Source: Rhodospirillaceae bacterium
GTDB taxonomy: Bacteria; Pseudomonadota; Alphaproteobacteria; Kiloniellales; DSM-21159
Reading direction: 5' to 3'
NCBI GenBank assembly: GCA_006969625.1
Contig: CP030885.1
Location: 2,615,430 to 2,679,429 of the forward strand
DNA length: 64,000 nt
A model generated the notes under the pieces. It ran no database searches. It was given only the letters and a program-made list of their open reading frames with translations, and was not told where the DNA came from. The position numbers were made by a program, and so were the translations under genes. Positions 6,825-37,356 of this stretch are shown here, in pieces (position 1 is the stretch's first letter; each line of letters begins with the position of its first letter).

Positions 6825-7439
6825 ATGAGTCAACGCGAAGCTTCCGAACCGCTGCGGCGGGTGCAGCACCGGAGCCGGGAAACCTGCGAGATCGTCGGCC
6901 ACCGGATCCGCGAACTGCGCAAGGTCCGGCGGATGGCGCTGAGGGACCTGTCGCAGGCGACCGGCCTGTCGGTCGGCTATCTCAGCCAACTCGAACGGAA
7001 TCTGGCGACGCCCTCGATCCGGGCATTGAGCGACGTGGCCCGCGCCCTCGAGGTCGGCATCAACTGGTTCTTTCCCGACCCCGAGGCCGAGGCCTCCCCC
7101 GAGGCCGCGACGGTGGTGCGCGGGGCGAAGCGCCGGGCGCTGCGGTTCGCCTCGGGGATCAAGGACGAGCTGCTCTCGCCGTCGCTTTCGGGTGCGCTGG
7201 AGATGCTGCTGTGCACCTTCGAGCCGGGCGCCTCCTCCGGCGAGAAGCTCTACGAGCACGAGGGCGAGGAAGCCGGCTACGTGGCCGAGGGGCAACTCGA
7301 AATCACGATCGAGGAACGGCTGCTGCACCTGCAAGCCGGCGACAGCTTCCAGTTCGAAAGCCGGCGCCCGCACCGCTACCGCAATCCCGGACCGGGGCGC
7401 ACCGTGGTCGTCTGGGCGATGACTCCGCCCCGCTATTGA
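6825..7439 (+). CDS. XRE-family regulator with C-terminal cupin domain
   Basis: A 204-residue regulator. A helix-turn-helix spans about residues 22-76 (RIRELRKVRRMALRDLSQATGLSVGYLSQLERN). A cupin sensor follows at about 130-200, with EHEGEEAGYVAEGQLEI and a terminal HRYRNPGP loop. Proteins of this build (PuuR and SutR types) sense a small metabolite and repress or activate a neighbouring catabolic operon. No clear ribosome binding site precedes the ATG because the operator-like inverted repeat occupies that space. The divergent ThDP enzyme is its likely target. Confidence 0.85.
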   Translation: MSQREASEPLRRVQHRSRETCEIVGHRIRELRKVRRMALRDLSQATGLSVGYLSQLERNLATPSIRALSDVARALEVGINWFFPDPEAEASPEAATVVRGAKRRALRFASGIKDELLSPSLSGALEMLLCTFEPGASSGEKLYEHEGEEAGYVAEGQLEITIEERLLHLQAGDSFQFESRRPHRYRNPGPGRTVVVWAMTPPRY

Positions 7440-7478
7440 CGGCGGCCGACCTGCCCGTTGCGCCGCCTGCCGAAACCT

Positions 7479-7952
7479 TCAGGTCTCGACGACGATGTCC
7501 GGCTCGGCCTTGACCGGGAAGTTGACCGAGTTGGCGATGAAGCATTTCGCGTGCGCCTCGTGGTGTAGGTCGGCCGCGGTCCGGACATCCGCGCCGGGCG
7601 CCAAACGGATACGCGGTCGCAGCACCACTTCGACGAAGCGGCCGCCGCCGTCCGGCGACTCCGCCATGACGCCTTCGGCCGTGTCCTCGTAGGCCAGCAC
7701 CGTGATGCCGCCGACCGCGCAAAGATGCAGGTACCACAGCATGTGGCACGCCGAGAGCGAGCCGACTAGCGACTCCTCCGGGTTCCAGCGGTCGCGATCG
7801 CCGCGGAAGGCCGGATCGGCCGACCCGGCGATGGCCGGCTTGCCCTCGGCCCTCAAGAGATGATCGCGACCGTAGGCCTTGTAGTCGCGCGTGCCAACGC
7901 CGCGTGCGCCGGTCCAGGAAAGGCTGACGGTGTACTCGTGGGATCGGCTCAT
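7479..7952 (-). CDS. OsmC family protein
   Basis: A 157-residue OsmC/Ohr-fold protein; AAGGAG upstream supports the ATG at 7952. Both redox cysteines are present: C69 in SLSACHMLWYLH and C137 in AHAKCFIANSVNFPV. The helix between them is followed by a beta-rich C-terminus. The family reduces organic or fatty acid hydroperoxides with thiol cofactors. The long N-terminal part (YTVSLSWTGARGVGTRDYKAYGRDH) matches the YhfA/OsmC-like subgroup rather than Ohr. It likely has a cytoplasmic detoxification role. Confidence 0.88.
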   Translation of the reverse strand: MSRSHEYTVSLSWTGARGVGTRDYKAYGRDHLLRAEGKPAIAGSADPAFRGDRDRWNPEESLVGSLSACHMLWYLHLCAVGGITVLAYEDTAEGVMAESPDGGGRFVEVVLRPRIRLAPGADVRTAADLHHEAHAKCFIANSVNFPVKAEPDIVVET

Positions 7953-8031
7953 GACGGGCTCCTTCCAGTGAGCGAGAGGTTGGGAACGGCAGGCGCCGGC
8001 CCATTGTCGATCGGCAGGCCGGGCCGACGTC

Positions 8032-8724
8032 TCATGCGGCGATCGCGGGCCGGCGCACCACAAGCCGATGGGTGGCGCCGATCTGGAAGCTCCAGTCGAC
8101 GGCCTCGATCGTCGCGCTGTGTCCCTGGCGCGCTACGGAAGCCAGGATCTGGGGCAGAAGCCGGCTGCTTTGGCCATCCATGCGCACCAGCGGGAACAGG
8201 CGGATCTCGCGGGCGACCCGGAGCATCTCCTTGACCGATGCAAGGGTGAACGCCCGTCCCTGCGTCGCCTCGTTCAGGAAGAGGAAGTGCGAGCAGAGGG
8301 CGACGTCAAATGCGGCGTCCGCGAACGGCAGCTTCGGCAAGCTGGCCTCCACGTAGCGATCCCCACCGTGCCTCTCGAAGTCCTTCAGGAAGGCCCGCAT
8401 GGTCTCGACGCGCCGCGCCTCCAGTCGGCGCGGTGTTCCGATCCGGTCCCACCGGTAGCCGCTGAGATTCCGGTTGATTTGCTCCATGACCAGGGTCCGC
8501 GCCGCCTGAAAACGCTCGGAAATCGCAGCCGCGGAAGACACGTAGAGCGGATCCGCCGCGGTCACCCGCCAGCCATCCGCATTCGCTTCCGCGGCAAAGC
8601 TGGCCGGTCCCGCGGCGACGTCGAGGATTCGCGCACCACGCGGGATCGCATGGATCGCGAAGATCTCGTCGTACTCCTCGAGATTGCGACCCCAAGGCAC
8701 GGCCTCATGAAGATGGAACGGCAT
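8032..8724 (-). CDS. SAM-dependent methyltransferase-like protein
   Basis: A 230-residue class I methyltransferase fold. The SAM-binding motif I is ILDVAAGPASFAAE, followed by VTAADPLYV as the acidic end of strand 2 and LPFADAAFDVALCSHFLF as the motif IV region, with a KEMLRVARE helix typical of the UbiE/type-11 group. The ATG at 8724 is preferred over one six codons upstream because GGGGGAG precedes it at normal distance. The substrate is unknown. Its stop lies 79 bp before the downstream OsmC start. Confidence 0.75.
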   Translation of the reverse strand: MPFHLHEAVPWGRNLEEYDEIFAIHAIPRGARILDVAAGPASFAAEANADGWRVTAADPLYVSSAAAISERFQAARTLVMEQINRNLSGYRWDRIGTPRRLEARRVETMRAFLKDFERHGGDRYVEASLPKLPFADAAFDVALCSHFLFLNEATQGRAFTLASVKEMLRVAREIRLFPLVRMDGQSSRLLPQILASVARQGHSATIEAVDWSFQIGATHRLVVRRPAIAA

Positions 8725-8745
8725 CCCGGCTCCCCCGCACATCGA

Positions 8746-9351
8746 TCAGAGCGGGAGATCGACGATGAAGACGACAGAGCCGGCCAGCAGCAGGCCCATC
8801 GAAACGTTGAAGATCCGCAGACGGCGGTCCGTGTCGAGCACGCGCGCGATGCCGATGCCGAAGGCGACCCAGGCCGGGATGCCGATGCAGGAGGCGCTCA
8901 GGAAGGCCAGAACGATGACCAGGCTCGCGAGCAGCGGCGGCATCGCCGGGTCGAGAAAGGCGCCGGCTGCGCCGACCCCCATGGTCCAGGACTTCGGATT
9001 GACGAACTGGAAGCCGGCCGCCTCGAAGAAGGTCAGCGGACGCCCCTGCACCCGCGCCTCGGCGCGCCGGGCCGTCGCGATACGCCAGGCCAGCCAGAGC
9101 AGCCACGCCGCACCGGCAAGCTGCAGCGCCACGTGCAGGCGGGGGGCGGCCTGAACCACGGCGCCGAAACCGGCCAGACAGAGTGCCAGCAGCGCCCCCA
9201 TGCCGAAAACGATGCCGGCCTGATGCGGGAGGCTGCGAAGAAAGCCGAAGTTCGCGCCCGAGGCGGCGAGCATCATGTTGTTGGGCCCTGGCGTCCAGGC
9301 GGTGGCTGCCGCGAAGGCGAACACGGCTGCAGCGAGTTCGATCGCGTTCAT
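8746..9351 (-). CDS. LysE/RhtB family amino acid exporter
   Basis: A 201-residue membrane protein of normal family length with about six hydrophobic segments. The signature near the N-terminus is TAWTPGPNNMMLAASGANFGF, and FQFVNPKSWTMGVGAAGAF gives the conserved NPK in the middle. The ATG at 9351 follows CAGGG; a TTG three codons upstream is an alternative. It probably exports an amino acid or derivative. It is 21 bp upstream of the methyltransferase gene and may be co-transcribed with it. Confidence 0.85.
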   Translation of the reverse strand: MNAIELAAAVFAFAAATAWTPGPNNMMLAASGANFGFLRSLPHQAGIVFGMGALLALCLAGFGAVVQAAPRLHVALQLAGAAWLLWLAWRIATARRAEARVQGRPLTFFEAAGFQFVNPKSWTMGVGAAGAFLDPAMPPLLASLVIVLAFLSASCIGIPAWVAFGIGIARVLDTDRRLRIFNVSMGLLLAGSVVFIVDLPL

Positions 9352-9478
9352 GCCCTGCAATCCGTAGCCGAAGGCCGGCGCAGCCCGCCGACCGACGATC
9401 TTCGTCTCACATTAGTCTCCGCGGCCATGGCGGTTCAATTGTCTCATTTGCGGACCTGGTGAAGTGCCGAGGTGGAGC

Positions 9479-10180
9479 TTAGCGCCATTTGCTCGCGGCG
9501 TGGGTGCGCACGGCCTGCGCGAAGGCGACGAGCAGCGGGTGGTCGCGGTCCTCAAGCGCGACCCGCTCCGGCTGATAGGCGGTGCCGAAGAAGAAGGGGT
9601 GCTCCTTCAGCTCCAGCGCTCGCGGATCGCCCGCCTCGCTCCAGCCGACAATCTGCAAGGCGGAACCGGCGACCAGAGCGGCATAGGCGAGATCGAGTCC
9701 GTAACTGCACTGAAATTTCTCCTGCGCCCTGTCGCCCCCGTAGATCCGCCGCAGCTCCGCGCCCTCATCGAAGCGGACGGAGTCCTTGCGATCGATCAGC
9801 GGACAGCTCATCGCGACGACCACGGGCAAGGACGTGGCGGCGTCGATCTCGGTACTGCCGGCTTCCGCGTACCCGAGCGCGTTGCGGGCGAACTCCAAGG
9901 CGGCGTGCTGATAGCCGCCACAGGTGCCGAGGAAGGGAAGGCCCTTGCGGCGCGCCCAGGAGATGGCGGTCAGGGCACCCTCCAGACTCGCGTAAGGACT
10001 CCCTGGCACGCACCAGATCCCCTCGACCTCGTCGAGGGGATCGGGGCCGCGCGCGAGCGCCTTCGTGTCCACCTAACGCCATGCCAGCTTTGTCAGCTTG
10101 CGCGACAGTGCCGACTCGATCGCCCGGTGGGCGGTCAAGGCCTCGTTGCGTTCGCCGATCAGAGCCACTCGCGGTTTCAT
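9479..10180 (-). pseudogene. CTP synthase C-terminal-region-related amidotransferase, in-frame TAG
   Basis: A strong Shine-Dalgarno (GGAGGGG) and ATG at 10180 open a frame MKPRVALIGERNEALTAHRA that matches the start of this family. After 35 codons it meets TAG (10075-10073), and the same frame then continues for 198 codons with family sequence: GIWCVPGSPYASLEGAL, the nucleophile elbow GTCGGYQHAALEFARN, MSCPL, CSYGLD and a late HPFFFGTAYQPER. A GTG follows the stop immediately (10072), so the second part could be made by reinitiation. The protein is related to the glutaminase domain of CTP synthase, but the family role is unknown. The simplest reading is a single nonsense mutation (for example TGG or CAG to TAG). 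Readthrough or split translation is possible. Confidence 0.75.
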
Positions 10181-10257
10181 CTCACCCCTCCAGTCTTGCC
10201 GTATCGCTCGAAACCGAGCCACAGTCGCGCCCGCGGCGAAGCCGCGTGACGCGCTCG

Positions 10258-12414
10258 TCAGACGAGTGCGGCGCCCAGCGGCTTGCCGACCAAGTCGCGG
10301 CAGGCGTTGGCGAGAATCCGCAACCCGGCCTGTCCCTCCATCGACATGATCGACTCGGGATGGAACTGCACCGCCAGAAGCGGCTCGGAGCGATGGCGCA
10401 CAGCCATCACCACGCCGTCGTCAGTGTGTGCGATCTCTTTGAGTTCCTTCGGCAGACTGCCGGCTTTCACGTAGAGGGAATGGTAGCGTCCGAGATCCAG
10501 GGCCTGCGGCAGACCTGCGAACAGCGGGTCCTCGGCGGTCCAGACCCGCGAGGTCTTGCCGTGCACCGGCTGGCGGGACAGCCGCAATTCGCCGCCGAAG
10601 TGCTCGACCAGACCCTGCATGCCGAGGCACACGCCAAAGAGCGGCAGTCCTTTGCGCCGCGCAGCCCGGATGGTCCGGTCGAGATCGAAGTCCTTCGGGC
10701 GGCCTGGCCCCGGAGAGAGCACGACGAGATGGGGCTCGGCGGCCATGATCGTCTGCAACGCGCGCGCCGGTCGCTGGGTCGCCACGGATGCGCCGAGTTG
10801 TCTGAGGAAGTCGGCGAGCGTCAGTACGAAGCTGTCCTCGTGATCGACCACCAATACCCGCCGACCCGTCAACACCGGCTCCACCGCAGCCGTGGCATCG
10901 GCCGAATTCGTGCGCTCGTCCTCGAGTGCCGCAAGCATGGCCGAGATCTTCAGCCTGCATTCCGCATCCTCGTCTTCGGGGACCGAGTCCCATAGCAGGG
11001 TCGCCCCAACCCGTGCCTCTGCGATCCCCTCCTTCAAGCGCAGCGAGCGCAGCGTCAGGCCGGTGTTCATGTCGCCGTTGAAGTTGACCACGCCGACCGC
11101 GCCGCCATACCAGTGCCGCGGCGTCTTCTCCGTCTCTTCGATGAAGCGGACCGCTGCACGCTTCGGTGCGCCGGTGACGGTCACCGCCCAGGCGTGCGAA
11201 AGGAAGGCGTCGAGGGCGTCGCAGTCCAGGCGCAGACGCCCCTCGACATGGTCGACCGTGTGAATCAGGCGCGAGTACAACTCCAATTGGCGCCGGCCGA
11301 TTACCCGCACGCTGCCCGGCTCGCAGACCCGGCTCTTGTCATTGCGATCGACGTCGGTACACATCGTCAGCTCCGACTCGTCCTTCTTGGAGTTCAGCAG
11401 GCGCAGGATCTGTCGGGCATCGGCGAGTGCGTCCTGTCCGCGCGCGATGGTGCCCGATATCGGACAGGTCTCCACACTGCGTCTGCGCACCCGGACGAAC
11501 ATCTCTGGCGAGGCTGCGATCAGGAATTCTCCCTCGCCCAGGTTCACGAGACATCCGTAAGGTGCCGGGTTGGCGGTCTTGAGACGCGCGAAGACCTCGC
11601 TGGGCGCGCGCTCGCAGCGGCGGAAGAAGGTCTGAGTCAGGACCGCCTCGAACATGTCGCCAGACAGGAAACGCGCCCGCGCCGACTCCACGGCTTCGGC
11701 GTACGCGCCGGGCAAGTGGTCGCAGGCCGTGCGAGGATGCGCCGGCGCGCCCAGCTCAGATGGCGCGCCGGTGCGCGCCAGCCCGTCCGTGCTTCGCCCT
11801 TCGACTTCGAACTCGTAGCGCACGACGCGGCAGGTCTCCGCGGCATGGTCGACCAAGGTCAGCTCGTCCGGCAGATAGAGCACCAGGTCGCGCTGCCCGG
11901 CAGTCCGCTCGAGGCACCGGGGCACCGGCTCCAACTGCTGGAGCAGATCGAAGCCGAAGGCACCGTACAGGCCCAGGTACGGATCGTCCGGCGCAGCGAA
12001 GGCGCCGACCACGCGCCGCAGCGCCTGGAAAAGTGCCGATCCACGTGTACGCCGCTCCTCCGTCGCCGGTGCGCACGGGGCGGGCAACTGCATTTCGGCC
12101 ACCTCCCGGGTCCAGGTCATGCCCGCGGCTGCGGCAACGGCTGGCGCCAGCACGGCGCCACGGTCGTTGAGCGCCCGCACCCGTAGCCGCGATCCGGCGA
12201 CCTCCAGAGCGATGGGCGGATCGACGAAGCCGATATCCCAGCGCGTGTAGCGGCTGGGGTATTCGAAGCTCGACGAGAGGACGGCACCGCGCGCGCGGTC
12301 GAGCCGGGCGGTCAGACTGTCGATCGCGGATTCGTCCCGGCCGGCCTCGACATGGCGGCGCACGCGAACGCCACAGGGCGTCGTAAAGCTGAGGCTTGTC
12401 TGGGCAGACGGCAT
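10258..12414 (-). CDS. trpE: fused anthranilate synthase TrpE-TrpG
   Basis: A 718-residue fusion catalysing chorismate plus glutamine to anthranilate, the first step of tryptophan synthesis. The TrpE part (about 1-500) has the chorismate-binding segments CPISGTIARGQDALAD, LTMCTDVDRNDKSRVCEPGSV and VTGAPKRAAVRFIEE. After a linker, the TrpG part has the glutaminase nucleophile C596 in GVCLGMQ and H685/E687 in QFHPES. Such fusions (TrpEG) are typical of Rhizobiales and Rhodospirillales. The ATG at 12414 follows GGAG. Expression is evidently controlled by the Trp-rich leader peptide and terminator hairpin just upstream. No other trp genes lie beside it. Confidence 0.95.
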   Translation of the reverse strand: MPSAQTSLSFTTPCGVRVRRHVEAGRDESAIDSLTARLDRARGAVLSSSFEYPSRYTRWDIGFVDPPIALEVAGSRLRVRALNDRGAVLAPAVAAAAGMTWTREVAEMQLPAPCAPATEERRTRGSALFQALRRVVGAFAAPDDPYLGLYGAFGFDLLQQLEPVPRCLERTAGQRDLVLYLPDELTLVDHAAETCRVVRYEFEVEGRSTDGLARTGAPSELGAPAHPRTACDHLPGAYAEAVESARARFLSGDMFEAVLTQTFFRRCERAPSEVFARLKTANPAPYGCLVNLGEGEFLIAASPEMFVRVRRRSVETCPISGTIARGQDALADARQILRLLNSKKDESELTMCTDVDRNDKSRVCEPGSVRVIGRRQLELYSRLIHTVDHVEGRLRLDCDALDAFLSHAWAVTVTGAPKRAAVRFIEETEKTPRHWYGGAVGVVNFNGDMNTGLTLRSLRLKEGIAEARVGATLLWDSVPEDEDAECRLKISAMLAALEDERTNSADATAAVEPVLTGRRVLVVDHEDSFVLTLADFLRQLGASVATQRPARALQTIMAAEPHLVVLSPGPGRPKDFDLDRTIRAARRKGLPLFGVCLGMQGLVEHFGGELRLSRQPVHGKTSRVWTAEDPLFAGLPQALDLGRYHSLYVKAGSLPKELKEIAHTDDGVVMAVRHRSEPLLAVQFHPESIMSMEGQAGLRILANACRDLVGKPLGAALV

Positions 12415-12450
12415 TTCGGTCTCCGTTCGTGGGTAAGACCGCCGTCGCAA

Positions 12451-12485
12451 GCCGAAAACGAAAGAGGCCGCCTTGCGAGGCGGCC
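12451..12485 (-). terminator. trp attenuator (rho-independent terminator)
   Basis: Read on the minus strand, AGGCGGCC pairs with GGCCGCCT as an 8-bp GC-rich stem (12466-12473 with 12478-12485) with a 4-base loop. The run TCTTTCGTTTTC follows. It lies 36 bases after the leader-peptide stop and about 35 bases before the TrpE(G) start, the position expected of an attenuator. An alternative antiterminator pairing with the G/C-rich stretch just after the leader stop is plausible but was not folded. Confidence 0.8.
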
Positions 12486-12520
12486 GATGGAAGGAATGCA
12501 CAGGGTCGGGCCGCCGGGAC

Positions 12521-12571
12521 TCAGCGCGGCCACCACCAGGAACTGCGGAAAGAATCTGGATGCTCGTTCAT
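12521..12571 (-). CDS. trpL: trp operon leader peptide
   Basis: A 16-codon frame, MNEHPDSFRSSWWWPR, with three consecutive tryptophan codons (12538-12530) just before its TGA. Ribosome stalling at these codons when charged tRNA-Trp is scarce would favour an antiterminator over the hairpin at 12466-12485. An ATG six codons upstream (12589) in the same frame is an alternative start. The position and the Trp run match rhizobial trpE(G) leaders. Confidence 0.85.
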   Translation of the reverse strand: MNEHPDSFRSSWWWPR

Positions 12572-12783
12572 CGGCAAAACTCTGCGCATTCCCGGTGCGA
12601 CCTGCAAGGAAAATCTCATTGCGAGGAGCCGGGGTTGCCTACGCTGGTTTACCGGCGAACGAGAACCATGCGGAGCGTGCGACCGTGGGACTTGTCCCCT
12701 AAATCGCTTGACTGCCGTTGCACCCTCTATGAATGAGACTGGTAGCGACATGGAGCGGTTCCCGACCCGAGGAGCGAAAGACC

Positions 12784-13116
12784 ATGATCACCTGCTATCT
12801 CGTTTACGAAATCGACCCTGCGAAGCTGAGCGACTTCGAGCGCTATTCGCGGTTCTGGCTCGAGGCGGTGCCGGAGTTCGGCGGCGTCCACCACGGCTAC
12901 TGGCTGCCGCACGAAGGTGCCAGCGACGAAGCGGTCGCTCTCTTCAGCTTCCAGAGCCTTGCCGCCTACGAGGATTACCGCCGGCGCAGCAAGGACGATC
13001 CCAGGTGTCAGGAGATGTTCCGCTTCGCCGAGCAGACCGGCTGCATCCGCCGATACAAGCGCAACTTCCTGCGGCCGCTGGCACCGGAAGGGTCCGGTCG
13101 ACCCGCCCAAACCTGA
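12784..13116 (+). CDS. NIPSNAP family protein
   Basis: A 110-residue protein with the ferredoxin-like alpha/beta barrel pattern of NIPSNAP proteins: MITCYLVYEIDPAKLSDFERY at the start, FGGVHHGYWLPHEGAS in the middle and a late RCQEMFRFAEQTGCIRRYKR. The ATG at 12784 is preceded by GAGGAG. The molecular function of bacterial NIPSNAP proteins is not established; they occur as small stand-alone dimeric proteins. It is divergent from the trp leader and has its own promoter region of about 200 bp. Confidence 0.85.
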   Translation: MITCYLVYEIDPAKLSDFERYSRFWLEAVPEFGGVHHGYWLPHEGASDEAVALFSFQSLAAYEDYRRRSKDDPRCQEMFRFAEQTGCIRRYKRNFLRPLAPEGSGRPAQT

Positions 13117-13130
13117 CGGTCGCCCTTTGC

Positions 13131-13172
13131 CTGATCGCGCCTAGCTGATCGCACCTGCCTGATCGCGCTTGC
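13131..13172. repeat. degenerate 14-bp tandem repeat, three copies
   Basis: Three successive 14-bp units beginning CTGATCGC (13131-13144, 13145-13158, 13159-13172) with one to three differences each. They lie just after the NIPSNAP stop and before a second tandem array. No function is evident. Confidence 0.7.
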
Positions 13173-13200
13173 CCGAACGCTGGGCGCGACGCACCGTCGA

Positions 13201-13238
13201 AGCCTGGGCATGAAGCCTGGGCATGAAGCCTGGGCATA
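13201..13238. repeat. 13-bp tandem repeat, three copies
   Basis: AGCCTGGGCATGA is repeated at 13201 and 13214, and again at 13227 with the final base(s) changed (AGCCTGGGCATA). It lies in the gap between the convergent NIPSNAP and 77-residue genes. It may be a polymorphic minisatellite. Confidence 0.8.
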
Positions 13239-13273
13239 TCGATATCGAACCGCTTCGATTCGCACGGGCGGCT

Positions 13274-13507
13274 TCAATGCAACGTGCGCGCAGCCGCCCA
13301 ACGGACGACGTAGGCGGCGAGCTCCGTCATCCGTTCGAGGTCCTCCCAATCGGCGACGCCGCCGCTGACGGCTCCGGCGACGTCGTCGACGCTGGGGTCG
13401 CGGTAGCTGTAGACCAGCGCCTTCGCCAGAAGCAGCCGATCGCAGACTCTTGTCGCCTGCGGACTGCAACAGGGCATCTGCGCCATCACCTCGTACAGGT
13501 CGCTCAT
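13274..13507 (-). CDS. small hypothetical protein with CC motif
   Basis: A 77-residue protein of unknown function. GAGGAG precedes the ATG at good distance, and a hyphenated dyad lies 25-50 bases upstream, so the gene looks genuine. It has three cysteines near the start (MPCCSPQATRVCDRLLLAKAL) and is otherwise a mostly helical, soluble-looking sequence with an acidic middle (SVDDVAGAVSGGVADWEDLERM). No family is recognised. The cysteine cluster could bind metal or be redox active; this is only a suggestion. Confidence 0.6.
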   Translation of the reverse strand: MSDLYEVMAQMPCCSPQATRVCDRLLLAKALVYSYRDPSVDDVAGAVSGGVADWEDLERMTELAAYVVRWAAARTLH

Positions 13508-36348: not shown

Positions 36349-36378
36349 AACGGGCGGAGCCGGCCGGCTCCGCCCGTT
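36349..36378. terminator. 30-bp perfect palindrome, terminator after the Mo hydroxylase
   Basis: AACGGGCGGAGCCGG is followed directly by its reverse complement. The plus strand continues TTCG (TTT counting the last palindrome bases). It is 32 bp after the large-subunit stop and fits a rho-independent terminator. The identical 30 bp recurs at 37327-37356. Confidence 0.7.
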
Positions 36379-37326: not shown

Positions 37327-37356
37327 AACGGGCGGAGCCGGCCGGCTCCGCCCGTT
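37327..37356. terminator. 30-bp perfect palindrome, second copy
   Basis: Identical to 36349-36378 and followed on the plus strand by further T residues (TTTT to 37358). It lies between the relic module gene (plus) and the stop of the binding-protein gene (minus, 37382) and probably terminates one or both. The two identical copies bracket the relic module. Confidence 0.65.

Follow-up and report, generated by a model that had tools for sequence, protein, structure and literature searches.

Layout of the interrupted gene

The window, a stretch of bacterial DNA of 64,000 nucleotides, carries on its minus strand an amidotransferase-like gene that is interrupted by a stop codon. The frame opens with an ATG at position 10180 and runs for 35 codons to a TAG at 10075-10073, after which 197 further codons lead to a TAA at 9481-9479. 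No other in-frame stop was found on this strand from 10180 to 9479. The features of the locus are listed below.

9479 to 10180, minus strand: interrupted amidotransferase-like gene, an NF004836/PRK06186 homologue, ATG to TAA with an in-frame TAG
10185 to 10191, minus strand: Shine-Dalgarno sequence GGAGGGG for the ATG start, from sequence and duplex energy
10076 to 10180, minus strand: N-terminal fragment, codons 1-35, with predicted strand 1, helix 1 and the start of strand 2
10073 to 10075, minus strand: TAG, codon 36, in a column that is Trp (TGG) in 34/34 relatives
10070 to 10072, minus strand: GTG, codon 37, a possible but poor reinitiation start
9479 to 10072, minus strand: open remainder, 197 codons and TAA, with the nucleophile Cys87 and the Q203-P-E205 motif
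10016 to 10042, minus strand: perfect 12-bp inverted repeat with a 3-nt loop, within the coding frame

The duplex energy of the Shine-Dalgarno sequence is −10.7 kcal/mol, which places this ATG among the best 1% of 1579 minus-strand ATG/GTG triplets. A sequence-only reading of this DNA had described this opening, the TAG following codon 35 and a GTG immediately after it, and all of these are seen in the sequence, the GTG directly abutting the TAG. That reading also counted 198 open codons beyond the TAG. The remainder is indeed open, and its length is 197 codons plus the stop.

A simple scan of positions 9300-10600 revealed neither a sigma-70-like promoter nor an intrinsic terminator. An overlapping plus-strand frame (9464-10249) was considered as a gene and rejected, as it has no Pfam match. 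Directly upstream of the broken gene, positions 10258-12501 of the minus strand encode a protein of 747 aa that combines chorismate-binding and GATase domains and resembles a fused anthranilate synthase. The downstream neighbour is a LysE-type gene.

Family assignment and conservation among relatives

When the TAG is read through, residues 4-224 of the protein match positions 2-227 of the NCBIfam model NF004836 with an E value of 2.9e-71. Because this match spans both sides of the TAG, the family likeness is beyond chance, and the earlier description of a CTP-synthase-related amidotransferase-like protein is upheld. The model, also designated PRK06186, bears the name "CTP synthase C-terminal region-related (seleno)protein"; in a search of the PMC literature, one paper contained the family's name and none contained PRK06186. 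The score is 239.2 bits with X at the TAG position and 246.3 bits with W, and the curated cut-off is 260 bits, a value passed by all seven relatives from genome contigs and by 26 of 27 others. Since the score falls below this cut-off, we call the protein a divergent NF004836 homologue rather than a formal member. Two CTP synthase models score only 97 and 90 bits against the 239 bits of NF004836, and the Pfam GATase model is matched above its cut-off (32.3 versus 22.8 bits).

An AlphaFold2 prediction made with the TAG read as W and with seven relatives gave a confident model (mean pLDDT 87.8, pTM 0.89). A Foldseek search with this model placed CTP synthase glutaminase domains first, with 2vkt at rank 1 (E 3.9e-18, TM 0.82). 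The read-through protein is predicted to adopt a CTP-synthase-glutaminase-like fold.

Class I glutamine amidotransferases carry a Cys-His-Glu triad. In the read-through protein Cys87 (codon TGT) and Glu205 are present and Gln203 replaces the His. The relatives have Gln at the position of the His of the CTP synthase HPE motif in 32 of 34 cases (the remaining two carry Glu and Val), and at the other two triad positions Cys is kept in 34/34 and Glu in 33/34. Gln at the HPE His, with Cys and Glu kept, raises the possibility that NF004836 is not a family of standard glutaminases. If this His is catalytic, as we presume it to be in CTP synthase, then glutaminase activity should not be assumed for the family.

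Conservation was examined in an alignment of 34 relatives, consisting of seven from genome contigs and 27 class- and phylum-sample matches at E 1e-55 or better, with the window's own copy excluded. Nine weaker class-sample matches (E 9e-41 to 1e-44), whose frames of 538-564 aa have the length of a whole CTP synthase, were left unaligned, as were 66 plasmid records, all below 60% identity and 59 with a query coverage of 80% or more. The TAG column is tryptophan in 34/34 aligned relatives and the codon is TGG every time, in line with the TGG or CAG that had been anticipated for this codon. Because TGG is found in every relative, a single base separates the TAG from the family codon. In all 34 relatives both parts lie in one uninterrupted frame, and no internal stop was found in the other 27 matches at E 1e-55 or better from the class and phylum samples. 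An arrangement as two separate genes, which had been named as the case that would speak against an interruption, was thus not seen among these relatives, a set picked by strong whole-family matches in which split genes would be under-sampled.

Columns conserved in at least 90% of the 34 relatives, excluding that of the TAG, number 55. The window gene keeps 50 of these. Ahead of the TAG the share is 7 of 9 and beyond it 43 of 46, where all three departures are conservative substitutions (L to M, Y to F and F to Y). When each relative was scored against the rest, three of the 34 kept a smaller conserved share (lowest 42/55) and one an equal share. The closest of the compared relatives are less than 50% identical to the window protein. 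The claim that every family motif is retained holds for the GTCGG nucleophile motif, but it is too strong for the conserved columns as a whole.

The simplest account of the early stop is a recent single-letter change that broke the gene, or one misreading during sequencing, and either would be ordinary. A sequencing or assembly error, with TGG as the true codon and an intact gene, is the main rival to a genuine mutation, and we give it a minor though real chance. The distance of one base from the family codon and the almost undamaged remainder of the gene speak for an error, and the strong hairpin 30 nt away could conceivably disturb sequencing. Against this, the genome consists of one contig with a listed completeness of 100% and a contamination of 0, and the matched stretches of 114 ABC-ATPase matches genome-wide are all free of stops. 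An assembly rich in errors overall is therefore not indicated. It also counts against an error that substitutions are rarer than indels among the errors of long-read assemblies.

Decoding of the TAG and options for restart

Several observations bear on whether TAG could be decoded as an amino acid in this genome. The window contains 68 frames of at least 300 aa, of which 30 were kept for their gene-like codon-position composition, and TAG terminates nine of these 30. The genome also has a match to release factor 1 (492 bits versus a cut-off of 423). On these two results genome-wide recoding of TAG was rejected. The 114 stop-free ABC-ATPase matches likewise give no hint of recoding. Decoding by pyrrolysine or by an amber suppressor was rejected as well. 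The genome gave no PylS match at E 0.001, in a search that found a match in 13 of 14 control genomes and scored above the cut-off in one of them. No CTA anticodon was found among the 49 tRNAs detected by Rfam (48 genome loci and one in the window, anticodons by ARAGORN), a survey that could miss a highly atypical tRNA scoring under the RF00005 threshold.

Selenocysteine is coded by UGA, and the frame contains no in-frame TGA. The published NF004836 selenocysteine lies in a GxUxG motif that matches the nucleophile motif (PMC13188914). Codon 36, a TAG, is away from that site, and codon 87 at the nucleophile is TGT; selenocysteine was therefore rejected.

A second way to obtain a product from this gene would be a restart downstream of the TAG. 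Reinitiation at GTG37 or internal initiation at GTG58 would yield a shortened functional protein, with relaxed selection on the N-terminus. That GTG37 adjoins the TAG favours this explanation, as does the fair pairing of the G-rich stretch upstream of GTG58 (−8.3 kcal/mol). The departures from conserved columns also cluster upstream of the TAG (2/9 versus 3/46), and the stretch at positions 24-36 holds 11 residues in the window gene versus 15 in 33 of the 34 relatives and 12 in one. However, the upstream excess does not reach significance (Fisher p 0.18; 0.06 when the TAG is counted). Furthermore, GTG37 lacks a Shine-Dalgarno sequence, and its pairing of −2.8 kcal/mol is below the median, with 66% of start-like triplets at least as good. 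The predicted model places strand 1 (4-8), helix 1 (16-26) and the greater part of strand 2 (33-37) within residues 1-36. The part cut off by the TAG is core fold, which a product begun at GTG37 would lack, and a start at codon 58 would additionally lose strand 3. A functional product of restart is unlikely on this evidence, and the earlier suggestion that reinitiation is possible is weakened. We infer that the gene yields no stable enzyme.

A hairpin downstream of the TAG is the only feature that sustains any recoding idea. The inverted repeat at 10016-10042 begins 30 nt past the TAG and encodes residues 47-55, including the conserved Leu49. Among 5000 dinucleotide shuffles of the gene, only 6 produced a perfect stem of at least 12 bp. 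The 95-nt segment containing the hairpin has a folding z of −2.97, and its counterpart is less stable in 34/34 relatives, a raw comparison without correction for base composition. If the hairpin were to aid programmed or leaky UAG readthrough, then some full-length protein could be produced, and the unusual strength of this structure for the gene speaks for such a mechanism. In contrast, the missing PylS match and CTA anticodon speak against it, and an Rfam search of 9000-11000 gave nothing at E up to 1, a result that also led us to reject a structured RNA. Moreover, 10 of 228 95-nt segments of 9001-12501 (overlapping segments counted) fold at least as stably, and we know of no bacterial UAG readthrough system that uses a hairpin of this kind. 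Readthrough of this sort is very unlikely. We hold a regulated stop, at which the hairpin would modulate readthrough or reinitiation and the protein would be made conditionally with no dedicated suppressor tRNA, to be just as improbable. The hairpin may be a coincidence in GC-rich DNA.

Shuffles of the whole window (n=20) contained a mean of 0.1 such stems, whereas the window itself has three, two of them belonging to copies of a single other element. That element is represented by identical 30-base hairpin sequences at 36349-36378 and 37327-37356, about 1 kb apart. None of 100 shuffles of the window held two such identical hairpin matches.

Distribution, age and likely fate of the gene

The family is patchily distributed. 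At E 1e-40, an order-level search of 61 genomes found a match in one, the window's own, and two genomes of the same genus (one of them 82% complete) gave no match at this threshold. At E 1e-55 or better, matches were obtained in 5 of 385 genomes of the class sample and in 25 of 398 of the phylum sample, the window's own genome being counted in each. Order-level searches around other class carriers (43 and 7 genomes) revealed no new copy, and one scan for viral relatives yielded a single pattern match and no confirmed relative. Ten frames neighbouring the relatives at 10 scanned loci were mixed, with LysR-type domains in three of the 10. This patchy distribution suggests that the gene is probably dispensable in the lineage and that its loss was tolerated.

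When positions 7300-13500 were compared by blastn with the 12 genomes of the taxonomic family, matches were found in 9 of the 11 others. The longest was about 400 bases and no two were adjacent; because the matches are so short and scattered, no empty site can be read at the locus.

A neutral simulation starting from the present sequence provides a guide to age. At 5% substitutions per site, 223 of 1000 runs ended with the frame open and no more than five conserved columns changed, whereas at 8% and 10% the same frame-open criterion left 22 and 4 of 1000, respectively. Because an open frame survives in the simulation at low divergence, the present state fits a young pseudogene, and a pseudogene here would have to be young. 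Ongoing selection or a sequence error would be equally compatible with these data.

The locus is probably a young nonsense pseudogene of a dispensable, probably accessory amidotransferase-like gene. To judge from the relatives, a formerly intact gene would have lost its function when one base changed and turned its invariant tryptophan codon into a nonsense codon. Translation would start normally and end after 35 codons, giving a useless peptide and no stable full-length protein. The nearly intact state of the rest of the frame would reflect a recent event. Against a pseudogene stand the absence of any further stop or frameshift and the few, conservative departures after the TAG (43/46 columns kept), which also fit continued selection, together with the upstream pairing of GTG58 and the unusual hairpin. 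The earlier reading had left the mutation as recent, tolerated or functional. The scarcity of further decay that it noted is borne out, and the balance lies with a young loss of function rather than with a functional stop.

The finding matters mostly for clean annotation: the appropriate label is probable pseudogene, or site for re-sequencing, rather than recoded gene. NF004836 is itself of some interest, being a stand-alone, CTP-synthase-glutaminase-like family without the usual His and with a reported selenoprotein member.

Comparison with known systems brings out what is ordinary and what is distinctive at this locus. With the NF004836/PRK06186 family, the window gene shares full-length homology, the GTCGG nucleophile and, at the site of the CTP synthase HPE, a motif of the FQPE type (here YQPE), but it differs in the in-frame TAG, the shorter 24-36 stretch and the score below cut-off. 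With the glutaminase domain of PyrG (PDB 2vkt, 3nva and 1s1m) the window protein shares the predicted fold, whereas it is stand-alone, lacks the synthetase domain and has Gln203 at the His of HPE. Selenoprotein members of NF004836 belong to the same family and likewise have a stop codon within the reading frame. Their selenocysteine, however, is at the nucleophile, where the window gene has Cys (TGT), and its TAG is at codon 36. Bacterial nonsense pseudogenes are likewise family-like genes with a single in-frame stop, and the window gene, which has no match in the order's other 60 genomes, is distinctive among them only by its neighbouring hairpin.
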